Below are positions 6,996 through 11,379 of a DNA stretch of 29,134 nt, one piece after another; position 1 is the stretch's first letter, and each line of letters opens with the position of its first letter. Both the position numbers and the translations under genes were made by a program. Below the pieces are notes generated by a model that worked only from the letters and a program-made list of their open reading frames with translations, had not been told where the DNA came from and did not search any database. Origin of the DNA: a virus; the IMG/VR virus record IMGVR_UViG_3300031758_000419, positions 1 through 29,134 of that record; one strand, given 5' to 3'.

Positions 6996-7149
6996 AGTTG
7001 TTTATTAAATCTGCTAAATAATCAAATGCTTGTTCTTGTGTTTCTCCAAATACATAGTGAGTACATCCATCAATGACAAAAGAATAGCAAGAATATCCAG
7101 CTATAACTTCCTCTTTGCACGTTTCAAATATGTTACTTGTATCTATCAA
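6976..7149 (-). CDS. Possible 57-residue acidic protein with non-ATG start
   Basis: The frame is open from a stop inside the ninG tail to 6976 and holds no ATG; the first plausible start is TTG at 7149. The translation is acidic with four cysteines (two in the YSCYSF and DGCTHY segments) and ends in ALADL-like helix AFDYLADLINNYGE. It overlaps the ninG stop by 17 bases and the next gene by 20 bases. Codon and amino-acid use look like a protein, and without it about 140 bases would be empty in a region where genes are packed end to end. I do not recognise it. The absence of ATG is the main doubt. Confidence 0.42.
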   Translation of the reverse strand: MIDTSNIFETCKEEVIAGYSCYSFVIDGCTHYVFGETQEQAFDYLADLINNYGESKQ

Positions 7150-7492
7150 TTAGTTCTATTAATTCAGTTCTTTGCCATTTTTTAATCCTATTGTTAACCG
7201 CCTCAAACTCCAACTCTTTCACCGCTTTTTCACCTATCCTTTCTACTAAGCCAATCCTATACATTGCTTGATTTCCGTGCTTAAACATATTGCATCCAGC
7301 ACATTGTAAATGGATGTTCCATTCGTTAAACCTTAAAGCCGAATAACCTTTAACAGTAAAGTAATGCCCAGCTTGATTTCCATTATAGCTTCCGCAACTA
7401 ATACAAGGCAATCCTTCATCTCGTTTTCTAATATAAGCATTAACTACCTTTTGGGTTTTATCTAACAACTTGGGTAAAGGTATCAATGGCAT
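7133..7492 (-). CDS. ninG: NinG/Rap-like recombination protein
   Basis: 119 residues. Lambda NinG (Rap) is a structure-specific endonuclease that favours Red-mediated recombination and resolves branched DNA. The family signature is complete: LPCISCGS (C30, C33), AGHYFTVKGYSALRF (H43 and following), NIHLQCAGCN (C64, C67) and KHGNQAMYRIGLVERIG (71-87). The C-H-C-C set is a zinc-bound HNH-like core. The protein is shorter than lambda NinG (about 204 residues), as is usual for the minimal phage versions. Its place in a block with a Bet annealase and an SSB-like protein fits a recombination role. A TAATTTTG box ends four bases before its ATG, with TTG 20 bases further upstream, so a leaderless transcript is possible. 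Confidence 0.88.
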   Translation of the reverse strand: MPLIPLPKLLDKTQKVVNAYIRKRDEGLPCISCGSYNGNQAGHYFTVKGYSALRFNEWNIHLQCAGCNMFKHGNQAMYRIGLVERIGEKAVKELEFEAVNNRIKKWQRTELIELIDRYK

Positions 7493-7496
7493 AAAG

Positions 7497-7527
7497 CAAA
7501 ATTAGCGTTACTTTTTCAATCTAACAA
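7497..7527 (-). promoter_or_regulatory. Candidate promoter next to the ninG start
   Basis: On the minus strand TTG (7527-7525), 20 bases, then TAATTTTG (7504-7497), then four bases and ATG. The box is the same eight bases as those at 5420-5413 and 29080-29073. Evidence is the match to the Bacteroidota consensus only; the stretch overlaps the 3' end of the previous gene. Confidence 0.33.
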
Positions 7528-7705
7528 CACATAATCTATCGTTATGCTTATATCGTTTCTTGTTAATTGGGTTCATATAAGTCATTATGGTTTTGTAATC
7601 AGTACCCAAAAACCTTATTGCCTTTGCTATTGACCTAAACCAAATCTCCTCTTTAGTATCTAAATAAATTAATCTAACTTCAATGTTATTATCTATTCCT
7701 GTCAT
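7508..7705 (-). CDS. Small basic protein, possibly a NUMOD-like DNA-binding module
   Basis: 65 residues, strongly basic at the C-terminus (NKKRYKHNDRLCVVRLKK). The middle reads IWFRSIAKAIRFLGTDYKTIMTYMN, which resembles the F-Siakaakflg...tI helix-turn-helix pattern of NUMOD1-type modules attached to homing nucleases. Here the module stands alone with no nuclease domain. The ATG overlaps the previous stop (ATGA), so it is probably translated together with the upstream membrane micro-protein. I infer DNA binding from composition and helix pattern only; no specific function can be claimed. Confidence 0.62.
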   Translation of the reverse strand: MTGIDNNIEVRLIYLDTKEEIWFRSIAKAIRFLGTDYKTIMTYMNPINKKRYKHNDRLCVVRLKK

Positions 7706-7821
7706 TTAATCAATCTTTTTAATTCAAAGTATAAATGTGCAGTTAAATAAATAAAACAAGCTAAAGGAACGCTAATAAGAATAAACTTTAGCAATTCGTA
7801 AATAAATGTTAATAGTTTCAT
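7702..7821 (-). CDS. 39-residue single-span membrane micro-protein
   Basis: The ORF encodes a short leader, a hydrophobic stretch of about 22 residues (roughly 5-29, with LLKFILISVPLACFIYL) and a basic tail ending in ELKRLIK, so it probably spans the inner membrane once. Both ends show ATGA overlaps: its ATG lies on the stop of the upstream gene and its stop lies on the ATG of the downstream gene. This double coupling and the AAACT-ATG context make it a believable gene despite its size. Its role is unknown. In the early block a membrane micro-protein might act on the host envelope or on superinfection, but nothing in the sequence proves this. Confidence 0.68.
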   Translation of the reverse strand: MKLLTFIYELLKFILISVPLACFIYLTAHLYFELKRLIK

Positions 7822-8552
7822 AGTTTGTTTTGTAAAAATAGGTACAAAGTATATCTTTTGCACTCGTTTTTTATAAATATTTCATTGTTTAATTTCTCCA
7901 AGTCCTTTTGAGTTTTAGCAGTTACCTTGTAATGTGCTATAATCTTTTTCTTTATTTGGTCTGCTTTATCTGGACTTAGATTATCCTTGTTTAATTCCTT
8001 TCGTTTCCATAGTATGTCAAAAGCCATCGTATTTAGTAACTCCCAGCCTCTTTTAGCAGACTTATCCCAATTTTCGTACAATGCCTCAATAACTTCATCA
8101 TCTTGTATTTTAGGTATCTCTACTGCTTGTGGTTCTACATAAGTCTTTTGTCTTACTTGTAAAGCTATTGGCTTATATGCTGCCATTACATCACCAAAAA
8201 ATTTAGGTGTAAACATAATTGCCTTGTCAACTGATAATTTTCCTATTGCGTATAGTTCAAATGCTACTCCAAGTTCCTTTAGTTTGTAATTTCCGTAATT
8301 TTTTATAACAAATTCGCAAATGAACTGAAATACTTCTATTGTTGGTGTTTGGCATCCGCTTAGTGCAACACAGGTCTTTAAGTGTTCCTTAACCTCTATT
8401 GGTGAACATCGACCAACACTCATAGTATCTAAAGCAAATACAACCTTTAATTCATCTGGTTCAAGTTTGTTATAGATTTCTAAGTGCAATAGTTTCTCGT
8501 TCTGAGTAAGAGAGTTTATGGCTTGTGGTAATACTTCTGTTAATAATTTCAT
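7818..8552 (-). CDS. Phage protein of unknown function, probably replication-linked
   Basis: 244 residues, soluble and mostly helical. A recognisable stretch is YGNYKLKELGVAFELYAIGK (86-105) followed by FGDVMAAYKPIALQVR near 119-134, a pattern I associate with a protein encoded just after the replication gene in Bacteroidota phages. The C-terminal part (about 185-235) is very basic and helical. It begins 83 bases inside the 3' end of the upstream replication gene, in another frame, so translation may be coupled; no better in-frame start follows before residue 44. A helicase-loader or adaptor role would suit the place but is only inference. No catalytic motif is visible. Confidence 0.75.
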   Translation of the reverse strand: MKLLTEVLPQAINSLTQNEKLLHLEIYNKLEPDELKVVFALDTMSVGRCSPIEVKEHLKTCVALSGCQTPTIEVFQFICEFVIKNYGNYKLKELGVAFELYAIGKLSVDKAIMFTPKFFGDVMAAYKPIALQVRQKTYVEPQAVEIPKIQDDEVIEALYENWDKSAKRGWELLNTMAFDILWKRKELNKDNLSPDKADQIKKKIIAHYKVTAKTQKDLEKLNNEIFIKNECKRYTLYLFLQNKL

Positions 8553-9120
8553 CGTTCCAAGATTTGTTGTTTAAAAATGTTTCAGGGTTTTTACGGAATT
8601 GCTTGTCTGGTACTGATTGCTTGTAAAGGTCAAGATAATTCATTGCATTTTGCCTTTCATCATCAGTTAATTTATTCCACTTCTTTTTTAGTTTTTGCTT
8701 ATCACCTACCTTTTTATCATATTCATTCCAAAACCATTCGAAATCTATATTTATATCTTCATTTATAGTTATAGTTCTATTTTCAGTTTCAGTTTCCATA
8801 TGCTTAGCATATGCTTCGCTAGTGCTTTCTTTTTTAGGTGATTTAGCGTTATTTCTCCTACTTTCACTAAATTTTTGCCTTCTAATGGTTTCATTATACA
8901 TTCTATCGTTGTAGTATAAACCATCATCAAATTTAAATTTATCCCATATTTCACTATCATATGCTTTACAAATGCTTAGCATATCCTTTTCACTTAATTT
9001 GCCTTTTTGATGTTGTAAGCACAAAAGTCTAATGTATTTTCCGACCTGTTCATTATCCATTGTAAAAGTGCCACTAAGAAAATCGCTTGTGTAAAATAAC
9101 ACCGCTGGGTCTTTAGCCAT
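8470..9120 (-). CDS. Replication initiation-type protein (DUF1376-like N-terminus)
   Basis: 216 residues from ATG at 9120. The N-terminus, with KDPAVLFYTSDFLSGT (3-18), NEQVGKYIRLLCLQHQKG (23-40) and SEKDML (43-48), is the winged-helix-like domain typical of phage replication organisers of this phylum. A low-complexity linker (about 92-125) leads to a second domain with FEWFWNEYDKK (127-137), WNKLTDDER (148-156) and NPETFLNNKSWNDE (178-191), also seen in phage replication proteins. An earlier in-frame ATG at 9147 exists, but it lies inside the hairpin leader, and the family normally starts with MAKDP. The protein probably recognises the origin and recruits the host helicase; no helicase or polymerase of its own is seen. 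A structured leader ends right at its start codon. Confidence 0.87.
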   Translation of the reverse strand: MAKDPAVLFYTSDFLSGTFTMDNEQVGKYIRLLCLQHQKGKLSEKDMLSICKAYDSEIWDKFKFDDGLYYNDRMYNETIRRQKFSESRRNNAKSPKKESTSEAYAKHMETETENRTITINEDINIDFEWFWNEYDKKVGDKQKLKKKWNKLTDDERQNAMNYLDLYKQSVPDKQFRKNPETFLNNKSWNDEIINRSITTSHKLSYSERETIALRNL

Positions 9121-9204
9121 AAAATAAAAAAGGCTCTCGGCATCCACCCCAGTAGGATTAGGGTTTCAGCTTTGAGCCAATAAGTTTTAGTTAGGATATC
9201 CTAC
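9121..9204 (-). terminator. Terminator-like or attenuator-like leader before the replication gene
   Basis: Minus-strand RNA from this stretch can form GGCTC (9178-9174) with GAGCC (9136-9132), followed at once by a U-rich run (9131-9121) that touches the ATG at 9120. Upstream a competing pair GTAGGAT (9204-9198) with ATCCTAC (9159-9153) would enclose the first arm. A 12-base palindrome TAGGATATCCTA occupies 9192-9203. The arrangement resembles an attenuator, but the five-pair stem with a long loop is weak, so it could also be a translational or origin structure. Confidence 0.45.
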
Positions 9205-9224
9205 ATCCTTTGTACGAAGATAAA

Positions 9225-9419
9225 CTAATTAACCGAATATTGTGCCACTTGTTTTTTGTTTTTTAGCTTAACAATGGTAGTTTTTATGTTCATTCCATCG
9301 TTTCTAAGGTCAGCTATTCGTGCTGCTAATCTAAAGCAACCGAACTTGTTAAGTGCATCAATAGGGGTTAACTTTCTACCTTTATTTAGGTAGTTTGCGA
9401 TTTGTGTTGTTTGACTCAT
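9225..9419 (-). CDS. Small helix-turn-helix protein (HTH_55-like)
   Basis: 64 residues. The sequence LTPIDALNKFGCFRLAARI (about 17-35), followed by DLRNDGMNIKT (37-47), is the pattern of the small helix-turn-helix domain often found in phages, where an A-L-FG-RLAARI helix pair precedes a short wing. The C-terminus is basic and ends in QYSVN. It probably binds DNA as a small regulator or replication accessory; its target is unknown. It lies between the SSB-like gene and the replication gene, and its stop is about 100 bases before the next start, with the hairpin leader in between. The ATG has the ACT-ATG context shared with other early genes. Confidence 0.84.
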   Translation of the reverse strand: MSQTTQIANYLNKGRKLTPIDALNKFGCFRLAARIADLRNDGMNIKTTIVKLKNKKQVAQYSVN

Positions 9420-9471
9420 AGTTGTAGTTTTTAAATTTGCGCTTAACGTTTTCGCCCAACGAGGGGTTGTT

Positions 9472-9744
9472 TTAGAATGGTAAATCGTCTTCGCTTTCTT
9501 GTTGGTTTACTGCAAATTCCTTTTTAGCAGTTGGTGCATTATATGAAACTTGCTTACCTCTACCACAATAGTTTTTCTTTGCTTTTTCGGCTCTTTCCTC
9601 TTGTGATTGGTTGTTCCATACTGTGTGTGTGTTTCCTTTCTCGTCTGGTTCTTTTAGGAAATCGGTAGCTACGTTTGCGTAATGCTTACCATTTTTGGCT
9701 TCTTTCCAATTAATTTCTTGTTTGCAAATGTTTAATACAATCAT
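9472..9744 (-). CDS. SSB-like protein with acidic C-terminal tip
   Basis: 90 residues. The last residues, SEDDLPF, match the acidic tip of bacterial single-stranded DNA-binding proteins (consensus DDDIPF), which recruits recombination and replication partners. The N-terminal two thirds (IVLNICKQEINWKEAKNGKH and the following KTHTVW-like and CGRGKQ segments) is short for a classical OB fold of about 110 residues but has alternating strands and basic and aromatic residues suited to binding DNA. It is close to a Bet annealase gene, and annealases are known to work with the cognate SSB tip. I infer an SSB role from tip plus context; the core is not one I can place with certainty. Confidence 0.72.
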   Translation of the reverse strand: MIVLNICKQEINWKEAKNGKHYANVATDFLKEPDEKGNTHTVWNNQSQEERAEKAKKNYCGRGKQVSYNAPTAKKEFAVNQQESEDDLPF

Positions 9745-9749
9745 TGTTT

Positions 9750-9926
9750 TTAGTTTTCGTGTTTATTAATTTGATTTTGTTCTAATGCTATTTCATTTTG
9801 TCTATCTTGTTCTTTTTCCTCCTCGTCTTCTTCTTCATCTTCCCAATCGCAATGCTCTAAACAATCAGGACAAATATCAATTTCAGTAAAGTCGGTTTCT
9901 GCTCCGCAGCAAGTTGAATAAGGCAT
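9750..9926 (-). CDS. 58-residue zinc-finger-like acidic protein
   Basis: The N-terminus holds CC at 6-7, then CPDC at 19-22 and HC at 25-26, a possible metal site of one zinc. Residues 28-41 are almost all aspartate and glutamate (WEDEEEDEEEKEQD), and the C-terminus is rich in glutamine and asparagine. It lies with 2 bases of separation from the gene upstream and 5 bases from the gene downstream, so it is part of the early operon. Acidic proteins of this kind sometimes mimic DNA and block DNA-binding enzymes, but here that is only a thought. I do not recognise the family. Confidence 0.7.
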   Translation of the reverse strand: MPYSTCCGAETDFTEIDICPDCLEHCDWEDEEEDEEEKEQDRQNEIALEQNQINKHEN

Positions 9927-9928
9927 AA

Positions 9929-10174
9929 TTAATCGTTTAAATAGTTTTCAAATACTTCAAATTTATCTGCCAACATTTTGTAAGGAATGTAGTTCCTTTT
10001 AGGTTGGTCTAATAATTCTGGAAAATATCTAAGTTTATGTTTTTTAAGTTCATCCTTTGCTGCGTTTAATCTATCCATCATTTCTTTTGCGTTTTGTGGG
10101 TAGCTTGTATCTACTTTGTAATTCCAGAACTTAACATTTTCCCTTAAGTCCCATAATTTGTTTATTGGTGTCAT
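9929..10174 (-). CDS. Small helical protein of unknown function
   Basis: 81 residues, with a long charged helix at about 28-46 (EMMDRLNAAKDELKKHKL) and a second helix at the end. No membrane segment, cysteine motif or known domain is seen. The start overlaps the stop of the Bet gene as ATGA (10174-10171), so its translation is most likely coupled to that of the annealase and it may be a recombination accessory. That role is inferred from coupling only. Confidence 0.7.
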   Translation of the reverse strand: MTPINKLWDLRENVKFWNYKVDTSYPQNAKEMMDRLNAAKDELKKHKLRYFPELLDQPKRNYIPYKMLADKFEVFENYLND

Positions 10175-10890
10175 AAAGTTTGTTTTTTCTTGGTAAATAA
10201 TTTAGTTACATCCTTAGTTGCAAGTTCGCTATTAAGTGCGTAAAGTTGGCTTAATTCGGTAGTATTTATGCACAAATCAATAGCTAATTCCAAGTCCTCT
10301 AAATTTTCGTGGGTCTTAATGTAAGCTGGGTTTTCTTCTGTTGATTGTGCCATTTCATCTCCTGTATAAAGTCCGCTTAAATCTTGTGGGTAAGCCTTTC
10401 TTAAAGCTAATGCTTCTGCAACTTTACTTAGCATTGTATGTGGCATCTTCGCCCATAAACCCATTGCTTTGCCATCGTTTGTTCTTTGGCAATATTCATC
10501 CCAGTATGCAACTCCAACGGCTGCCTCATACCTTGTATCGCCATTAAACCTAAATACTGAAACCTTACAGGAAACTAACTTACCATCTTGTTCTACAAAG
10601 ATTGGTTCGCTTTGACCACCATAGTTTCCACTTCTTTCAGCGATAACTCGGAAGCCATCAATACTTGTTTGAATTGTCATTTTTTTACCCCATCCAGTTG
10701 GTGTTTTTACGTTCCTGTGGATGCAATAAATTTGCCTTGATAAAGCATCAAGTCCTGTTCTTTGCGCTTGATAAAGAAAGAGTTTTAGTTCGTCAACTGT
10801 TGCCTCTGGAGCAATCTGTGATTTAACTAACTCTACTTGGTCTTTCGTGTACGAAAGTTGTGGCTTTTTAGCCAGTTGTTGTTCGTTCAT
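10171..10890 (-). CDS. bet: Bet/RecT-family single-strand annealing protein
   Basis: 239 residues. The protein anneals complementary single strands during phage recombination and concatemer formation. Family landmarks are LSYTKDQVELVKSQIAP (12-28), DELKLFLYQAQRTGLDALSR (33-52 region), QIYCIHR (53-59), the TIQTSIDGFRVIAERSG block (72-88), LWAKMPHTMLSKVAEALALR (145-164) and AYPQDLSGLYTGDEM (166-180). These follow the Redbeta order, and the length is close to lambda Bet (261 residues). No partner exonuclease (RecE, YqaJ or lambda Exo type) is seen in the window, whereas an SSB-like gene and ninG lie close by. The leader CCAACCAAT before ATG resembles that of the first gene of this block. Confidence 0.95.
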   Translation of the reverse strand: MNEQQLAKKPQLSYTKDQVELVKSQIAPEATVDELKLFLYQAQRTGLDALSRQIYCIHRNVKTPTGWGKKMTIQTSIDGFRVIAERSGNYGGQSEPIFVEQDGKLVSCKVSVFRFNGDTRYEAAVGVAYWDEYCQRTNDGKAMGLWAKMPHTMLSKVAEALALRKAYPQDLSGLYTGDEMAQSTEENPAYIKTHENLEDLELAIDLCINTTELSQLYALNSELATKDVTKLFTKKKQTL

Positions 10891-10941
10891 ATTGGTTGGT
10901 TTTAGAGTTTAAAATTAGGTACTTTAGTGTTAATAACCAAA

Positions 10942-11379
10942 TTAAACAAGCACATTTAAGTTGAAAACATCCTTTTTTATGGTATCATCAAACTTATTTG
11001 ACAATTGACCTCTAATCTTTGAGATTGAATGTAGAACTGTTGTCCTGTCCCTATTGAAGATTTGTGCTATTTCCTCGCCATTTAACTCGGTTTTTTCCTT
11101 AGTTAAATACATAGTCATTTGCCTTGCTAATGTAACTTCCTCGCCTCTATATTTGGACATTAATTGTCCATATTTTATTTGATAGTAATTACACACTTTT
11201 TCGGCTATTTGCACTGCATACTCTTTCTGTTCTTCTTTGCTCATTCTTGTTGTTTTTATGTTTAAATGTTGGTCTAATAGGTCTTTTAGCCTGTTAATTT
11301 CTTTCTTTAATTCTTTGTTTTTATCTCGCAAAACCTCTATTTCAAGTTCTGCCATATATGTTTTATGTACTTCTCTCAT
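10942..11379 (-). CDS. Protein with DnaA domain IV-like helix-turn-helix
   Basis: 145 residues. The first 40 residues are a charged helix (LEIEVLRDKNKELKKEINRL cut by Leu repeats), probably a coiled coil. Residues about 50-135 match the DnaA DNA-binding domain: VTLARQMTMYLTKE (82-95), LNGEEIAQIFN (99-109) and the signature DRTTVLHSISKIRG (111-124), close to the D-HTTV-HA motif that contacts DnaA boxes. The AAA+ ATPase domain of cellular DnaA is absent. It could bind DnaA-box-like sequences in the phage origin, guide host DnaA, or compete with it. Its ATG shares a base with the upstream stop (TAATG at 11381-11377). No DnaA box could be identified with confidence. Confidence 0.87.
   Translation of the reverse strand: MREVHKTYMAELEIEVLRDKNKELKKEINRLKDLLDQHLNIKTTRMSKEEQKEYAVQIAEKVCNYYQIKYGQLMSKYRGEEVTLARQMTMYLTKEKTELNGEEIAQIFNRDRTTVLHSISKIRGQLSNKFDDTIKKDVFNLNVLV

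Follow-up and report, generated by a model that had tools for sequence, protein, structure and literature searches.

In ColE1, RNAI and RNAII meet through 7-nt kissing loops that pair fully, an intermolecular contact between sense and antisense RNA. The leader pseudoknots of the IncI/IncB RepZ type are a plasmid system that works with an antisense RNA and a leader peptide. In phage P4, as summarised in PMC4825925, the CI RNA pairs with two complementary leader sequences and causes termination before the replication genes. In the HMP-PP (thiS) riboswitch, terminator and pseudoknot are described as mutually exclusive and ligand-switched (PMC6478431), and the put RNA of phage HK022 is described as binding RNA polymerase and suppressing downstream terminators (PMC9378689). 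The phage leader RNA reported here probably represents a control element of viral DNA replication that has yet to be described, since its shape is kept before several unrelated replication genes in related phages. A literature search that covered few subscription papers found no description of such an element.

The stretch of DNA analysed (the window) is the virus record IMGVR_UViG_3300031758_000419, positions 1-29,134, with a length of 29,134 bases; its minus strand carries the substantial ORFs. The nearest named-phage relatives of its terminase are Bacteroides phages (about 39% identity), and Flavobacterium phage records make up 75 of the 1,140 named-phage matches to this protein. A replication/recombination block occupies 7133-11379 (minus strand) and comprises DnaA C-terminal-like, RecT-like and HTH_39 genes, the leader, the replication gene and a NinG-like gene. 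The 64-aa HTH_39 gene stops shortly before the promoter box, and the leader fills the gap to the 216-aa replication gene, whose start ATG (9120-9118, minus strand) adjoins it directly. The leader RNA is 93 nt long (minus strand, 9210-9118) and consists of a 5'-terminal hairpin, P1, and a longer hairpin, P2/P3. Its features and the flanking genes are as follows:

9225-9419, minus strand: winged-helix gene HTH_39, 64 aa (PF14090, E 8.9e-15)
9215-9222, minus strand: promoter -7 box TATCTTCG, with 5 of the 6 fixed bases of the Bacteroidota TAnnTTTG; predicted +1 at 9210
9193-9209, minus strand: hairpin P1 (AGGAT 9209-9205, 7-nt loop, ATCCT 9197-9193), supported by covariation
9198-9204, minus strand: loop 1, GTAGGAT, 5' strand of the kissing helix, supported by Watson-Crick counts in the kissing cells
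9179-9192, minus strand: single-stranded linker AACTAAAACTTATT, its 3' part AA.CTTATT conserved though unpaired (column counts)
9132-9178, minus strand: composite hairpin of P2 (GGCTC/GAGCC), P2b (GC/GC) and P3 (ACCCTA/TGGGGT), supported by covariation
9152-9158, minus strand: loop 2, ATCCTAC, 3' strand of the kissing helix, supported by pairing counts and covariation
9121-9131, minus strand: U-rich run TTTTTTATTTT, a terminator-like tail directly after P2
8470-9120, minus strand: replication-initiation/primosomal-type gene, 216 aa (phrog_270, E 6e-11; phrog_9327, E 1e-10)

The first-pass annotation had placed a leader at 9118-9204 and pointed to a stem, a U-run, the ATG, a GTAGGAT/ATCCTAC pair and a palindrome, all of which are found on the minus strand. 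The leader is real; the end at 9204 falls short, omitting the 5' strand of P1 (9209-9205) and the promoter box (9222-9215). P1 sits at the predicted 5' end of the RNA, and the palindrome, TAGGATATCCTA, lies at 9203-9192 (minus strand). The arms of P2 are GGCTC at 9178-9174 and GAGCC at 9136-9132 (minus strand), and the composite hairpin has two purine-rich internal loops. GTAGGAT and ATCCTAC form a 7-bp loop-loop (kissing) helix between both hairpin loops, which is compatible with the stem. In the window, P1 has a computed energy of -3.7 kcal/mol if its loop is open and -5.9 if a three-base loop is closed; P2/P3 reaches -17.6 kcal/mol and the kissing duplex by itself -7.8. For the whole leader the minimum free energy is -24.7 kcal/mol (z -0.46), and 59 of 200 shuffles fold equally well; the folding energy is thus unremarkable, so that the decision is left to comparison alone.

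Relatives of the downstream protein were drawn from viral contigs (the best 80 of 159 and the best 80 of 543) and from genome contigs (71 loci). Placed side by side, their leaders show two hairpins with complementary 7-nt loops that change together, and a script asking for two kissing hairpins, an outer stem and a T-rich tail found these leaders and few other places. A MAFFT alignment (A3) of 15 leaders, picked from 25 for good register and made with no structure fitting, has 98.1% of its cells paired and double-sided changes in 20 of 25 pairs. Shuffles average 83.3% paired and 6.6 double-sided pairs, 0 of 500 reaching either real value, and sliding the partners leaves only 35-49% paired. A covariance model, R1, derived from A3 and including the U run and ATG, was run on 84 sources (window included): 59 of them give 60 rows at E <= 1, of which 58 are full-length at E < 2e-7; L084 is cut by the contig end and a second place in L095 is doubtful. 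The other 25 sources have no R1 match; at least 14 of these have more than 700 nt upstream of the gene, and many of the rest end near the gene start. Two more protein types behind the leader brought in extra loci, and among the 100 of 160 fetched that were run through the model, 98 matches were obtained at E < 2e-5.

The larger alignment, A5, holds 91 distinct leaders and was made to fit the nested structure, with the kissing helix left out of the fit. Within it, 98.4% of structure cells pair, and the kissing helix is Watson-Crick in 637 of 637 cells, with double-sided changes in 5 of its 7 pairs. The nested helices contain 72 G-U cells vs 9 A-C cells, which points to the sense strand as the one that folds. 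RNAalifold recovers the nested helices from this alignment, which itself leans towards them. Internal loops differ in sequence between types, while the linker motif AA.CTTATT is conserved across the 91 leaders; the linker is 12-15 nt long in 81 of 85 measured leaders. A simple tether-length argument finds no support: linker length and stacked-helix length correlate at -0.66, with no growth. The compensatory changes that the first-pass annotation had proposed as a check are present in both the 15- and the 91-leader alignments. Its idea of two mutually exclusive folds did not hold, since the loops pair while both stems stay and all helices covary in the same leaders; no further helix of 4-6 bp turned up in a scan that required its presence in at least 85% of the 91 leaders. 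Nor is the palindrome a conserved feature: it is limited to the loop type GTAGGAT and is broken, for example, in L043 and L036. No riboswitch class had been named for the leader, in agreement with Rfam, which gives no match for the window at the gathering score and none for the leader region at E up to 5. Sequence comparison thus strongly supports the leader as a structured RNA family that is without an Rfam match.

The loops themselves fall into 13 types, 12 of seven nt and one of six nt (CCGTAC). Besides the window pair GTAGGAT/ATCCTAC they include GTCGGAT/ATCCGAC in L043, GTTGCAG/CTGCAAC in L036, ATGCGAC/GTCGCAT in L057 and ATGGTAC/GTACCAT in L061. In loop 1 of the 91 rows, position 2 is always U and position 6 always A; a type encountered later, GTCGTTT, breaks the position-6 rule. 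Mapped onto a tree of 39 KDPA-type proteins, the loop type has switched nine times or more, and some of these changes may be swaps of the whole leader. GTAGGAT and GTCGGAT are each found ahead of four initiator types; since loop types cut across gene families, the RNA appears to act as a portable cis module.

A survey meant to avoid selection by gene, in which three leader-internal patterns were scanned over viral contigs, yielded 206 stretches whose loci overlap partly with the protein-found ones. The patterns end before the P3 loop, and the script required an ATG 45-80 nt further on, preceded by at least 6 T in 10 nt; a U-rich run and ATG at the expected distance are present in 206 of 206. 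The script found the kissing helix in 202 of them, and the other four, read by eye, are of the six-nt type. All 156 of 156 ATG ends obtained with R1 are, for comparison, partly built in because R1 contains the U run and ATG. Across 201 distinct contexts, what follows is a gene of replication-initiator type (at least six sequence types) or an inserted endonuclease or methylase gene. The initiator types are KDPA[FV]LFY, MAIFRKVHV (phrog_6251, replisome organizer), Lin1244_N (PF14297) with look-alikes, and, judged by place and sequence only, MAKRFTDTEKW, MAQFYTTIIHP and NTGRIEKQEV. Initiator genes are swapped behind an RNA that persists, which gives this RNA the look of a portable device for controlling viral replication. 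That the downstream protein generally regulates its own expression is rejected, because unrelated proteins share loop types in their leaders; single phages may still use such autoregulation.

The inserted genes encode HNH, GIY-YIG-like and NUMOD4-like endonucleases (the last two assigned by eye) and DNA methylases. At several loci, among them L044, L050, L054, L059, L067, L098, L506 and L574, the leader ATG serves as the start of an HNH, GIY-YIG-like or methylase gene placed exactly between RNA and replication gene, and the leader start seems to be a repeated insertion site. One RNA copy is present in 38 of 39 matching records and two in one record, where the second copy stands ahead of a NUMOD4-like ORF and carries a separate loop pair, GTGAGAT/ATCTCAC. 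Second copies with a loop pair different from the first were observed at L345:2854-2946, L346:3285-3377 and L349:3285-3377 (all plus strand); the locus end truncates the NUMOD4-like protein of L345 and those of two other cases.

Some loci depart from the full arrangement. At L085:937-1023 (plus strand) a natural deletion has removed the promoter and the 5' part of P1, while P2/P3, the U run and an intact gene remain; together with the at least 14 model-negative relatives, this deletion indicates that the element is dispensable for the gene family. Weak model matches at L095:3677-3771 and L205:2734-2827 (plus strand; E 0.055 and 0.15) combine a terminator-like hairpin with a AACTTATT-like linker and a U run that reaches directly to the start ATG of a small gene (MSNKLY...). 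No kissing partner was seen upstream of these hairpins, which are perhaps a reduced relative of the element. In a metagenome bin, at L178:2378-2489 (plus strand; E 0.3), another kind of hairpin, with TTTTTATTTTATG, immediately precedes a related replication gene; the arrangement may exist there in an independent version.

A PF00589 tyrosine integrase was found in 0 of 40 RNA-bearing records (39 plus the window), which may be fragments; of six relatives that lack the RNA, three have one, in one case with a score below the family cut-off. None of the 71 loci from genome contigs has a credible model match (best E 0.3). Whole genomes related to that of Flavobacterium caseinilyticum gave none either (0 of 296 at E <= 0.001), weak evidence given that no positive genome is known. 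A weak whole-genome match in L359 (E 0.0126) was discarded because its surroundings, read by eye, resemble ordinary metabolic coding sequence. A host-derived origin of the element was likewise rejected, as the cellular genomes searched contain no credible match. Among named phages, blastn with the window leader type gives matches only at E ~1 or worse, and tblastn with three downstream proteins finds none at >=60% identity. With no PF00589 integrase and no credible match in the cellular genomes searched or, for the window leader, in named phages, the carriers resemble virulent phages that infect uncultured Bacteroidota.

The place of the leader is well defined at both ends. Upstream, the exact TAnnTTTG box occurs in 100 of 108 distinct 60-mers (2.5 of 108 after shuffling); 37 of the 108 have a TTTG spaced 19-22 nt from the box, the window being without a good one. 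As outlined in PMC9723704, the Bacteroidota box occupies positions -12 to -5. The predicted +1 is at most 1 nt from the first paired base of P1 in 70 of 94 distinct leaders and at most 2 nt in 75, and it is located 5-20 nt upstream of P1 in 19. Judged from the promoter box, transcription would start at or next to the first base of P1.

Downstream, the distance from P2 to the ATG is 8-12 nt, and the first 8 nt after P2 contain 5-7 T, in 85 of 85 measured leaders (out of 88 distinct ones; L080, L217 and L085 were dropped from the tail and linker measurements). The 12 nt before the ATG contain on average 9.1 T in leaders vs 3.2 before 795 other ORF starts, where A averages 5.9; these controls are mechanical ORFs in the same loci, ORFs with TTTTATTT close upstream being excluded. 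The base at -3 is T in 77 of 88 leaders vs A in 498 of 795 other starts, and in F. johnsoniae A at -3, -6, -12 and -13 is reported to promote initiation (PMC6847099). The T-rich -3 context, set against the A-rich context of usual starts, indicates that the U-rich run is kept against the start-site preference. A stem thus lies directly before a U-rich run, between promoter and gene, the arrangement expected of an attenuator leader; this supports the earlier description of an attenuator-like leader on the replication gene.

The preferred reading, to which an even chance is given, is that the leader is a cis-acting attenuator of replication-initiator expression that would terminate transcription before the start codon. 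Transcription would start at or beside the first base of P1; in the nascent RNA, P1 would fold, then P3, and both loops would kiss. As the P2 3' strand emerges, the composite hairpin would close directly before the U-rich run, and some of the passing RNA polymerases would then stop immediately ahead of the start codon. Transcripts that read through would set a rod-like RNA against an unfavourable, U-rich start site, and the net effect would be restrained, tunable initiator expression and insulation from upstream early-gene transcripts. The kissing helix would be able to form during P2 transcription and could speed or hinder P2 closure. Comparison shows the sense-strand structure, the kissing helix, the constant place between promoter box and ATG and the link with many replication genes; termination and its efficiency are inferred, as are any regulator and the sense in which the kissing helix works. 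Against attenuation, P2 is short (4-6 bp in most leaders) and interrupted by internal loops; the longest T run is at most 4 in 14 of 85 measured leaders and some leaders have A or C right after P2, so that these would be weak terminators. Without a conserved antiterminator helix there is no visible switch; a classic terminator/antiterminator switch is unsupported, and the leader is filed as attenuator-like.

Several of these observations could also be read as translational control, in which a rod-like RNA 5' of the AUG would hinder or position the ribosome in hosts without Shine-Dalgarno sequences and the U-rich spacer would be the ribosome contact. The fixed contact with the ATG (8-12 nt from P2 in all 85 measured leaders) and the poor U-runs of some tails are in keeping with this, as is the tuning of F. 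johnsoniae initiation by secondary structure near the start, in the account of PMC6847099. Translational control alone leaves the T-richness after a GC-rich stem and the avoidance of A at -3 unexplained, and we regard it as rather unlikely.

It is distinctly unlikely that the leader is a 5' stability or elongation element, in which the 5'-end hairpin and the rod would protect the mRNA or contact RNA polymerase in the manner of HK022 put. The U-rich run at a fixed site beside the ATG would go unexplained, and in 19 of 94 leaders P1 lies more than 2 nt from the predicted +1. What speaks for it is that P1 begins at most 1 nt from the predicted +1 in 70 of these 94 leaders, and that put RNAs, as described in PMC9378689, are about 70 nt long with two stem-loops, putL lying just downstream of its promoter.

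The two complementary loops in each leader, the 13 loop types with their at least nine changes on the KDPA-type tree, the position ahead of replication genes and the precedent of P4 CI RNA, as far as PMC4825925 describes it, could suggest a trans-acting RNA: a short terminated leader that would pair through its loops with other leaders and control copy number or co-infection. This is very unlikely, for the covariation is fully explained by intramolecular kissing. The lack of PF00589 integrase in all 40 RNA-bearing records makes lysogenic immunity improbable, and the two copies in L345 have different loops and would therefore not talk to each other. A sense-only, self-complementary copy-number sensor is a highly improbable variant: the terminated leader would accumulate with genome copies and kiss nascent leaders in trans, loop 1 of one molecule pairing with loop 2 of another, and so change initiator readthrough. 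If it were true, each of the 13 loop types would mark a specificity group, and these groups would determine which phages hold one another back during co-infection.

A ligand-binding riboswitch whose aptamer is embedded in the terminator is very improbable: the compact pseudoknotted fold merged with a terminator-like stem recalls the HMP-PP riboswitch in the description of PMC6478431, but Rfam offers no match, internal-loop sequences vary between types, the genes downstream serve replication and not metabolism, and no conserved alternative fold was found.

Read as a cis-acting attenuator, the leader would make testable how phages set the dose of an initiator in hosts without Shine-Dalgarno sequences. 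The family occurs in many metagenomic phage contigs, its promoter boxes point to Bacteroidota hosts, and it occupies a single defined site, after the promoter and ahead of the first replication-module gene. As a compact natural kissing-loop leader, it would also be useful for structural work.

Comparison with the known systems shows that the phage leader shares some of the defining features of P4 CI, HMP-PP, RepZ and ColE1; in function, P4 CI and HMP-PP come nearest. Like P4 with its CI RNA, seqA and seqC, it has complementary leader segments upstream of phage replication genes. In P4, leader RNA-RNA pairing is linked to premature termination, whereas termination in the leader here is presumed; P4 CI is a processed, trans-acting antisense-type RNA that serves lysogeny, whereas the complementary loops here lie about 39 nt apart in one leader; and P4 is temperate, whereas a PF00589 tyrosine integrase, which would mark a temperate carrier, occurs in none of the 40 RNA-bearing records (P4 as summarised in PMC4825925). 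With the HMP-PP riboswitch it has in common a pseudoknotted fold and an intrinsic-terminator-like stem plus U run before the gene; unlike the exclusive, ligand-switched terminator and pseudoknot described there, the helices here are compatible, the internal loops vary and viral replication genes lie downstream (PMC6478431). HK022 put is, in the description available, likewise a phage RNA with two stem-loops beside a promoter; put suppresses terminators through RNA polymerase, while the leader here includes a terminator-like tail (PMC9378689).

Among the plasmid systems the likeness lies in the loops. As in IncI/IncB RepZ, loop pairing takes place in the leader of a replication-initiator gene; unlike there, no conserved antisense RNA or leader peptide was identified for the phage leader. 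The ColE1 RNAs share with it fully paired 7-nt loop-loop helices and a setting in replication control, but in the phage element both loops lie within one sense transcript.
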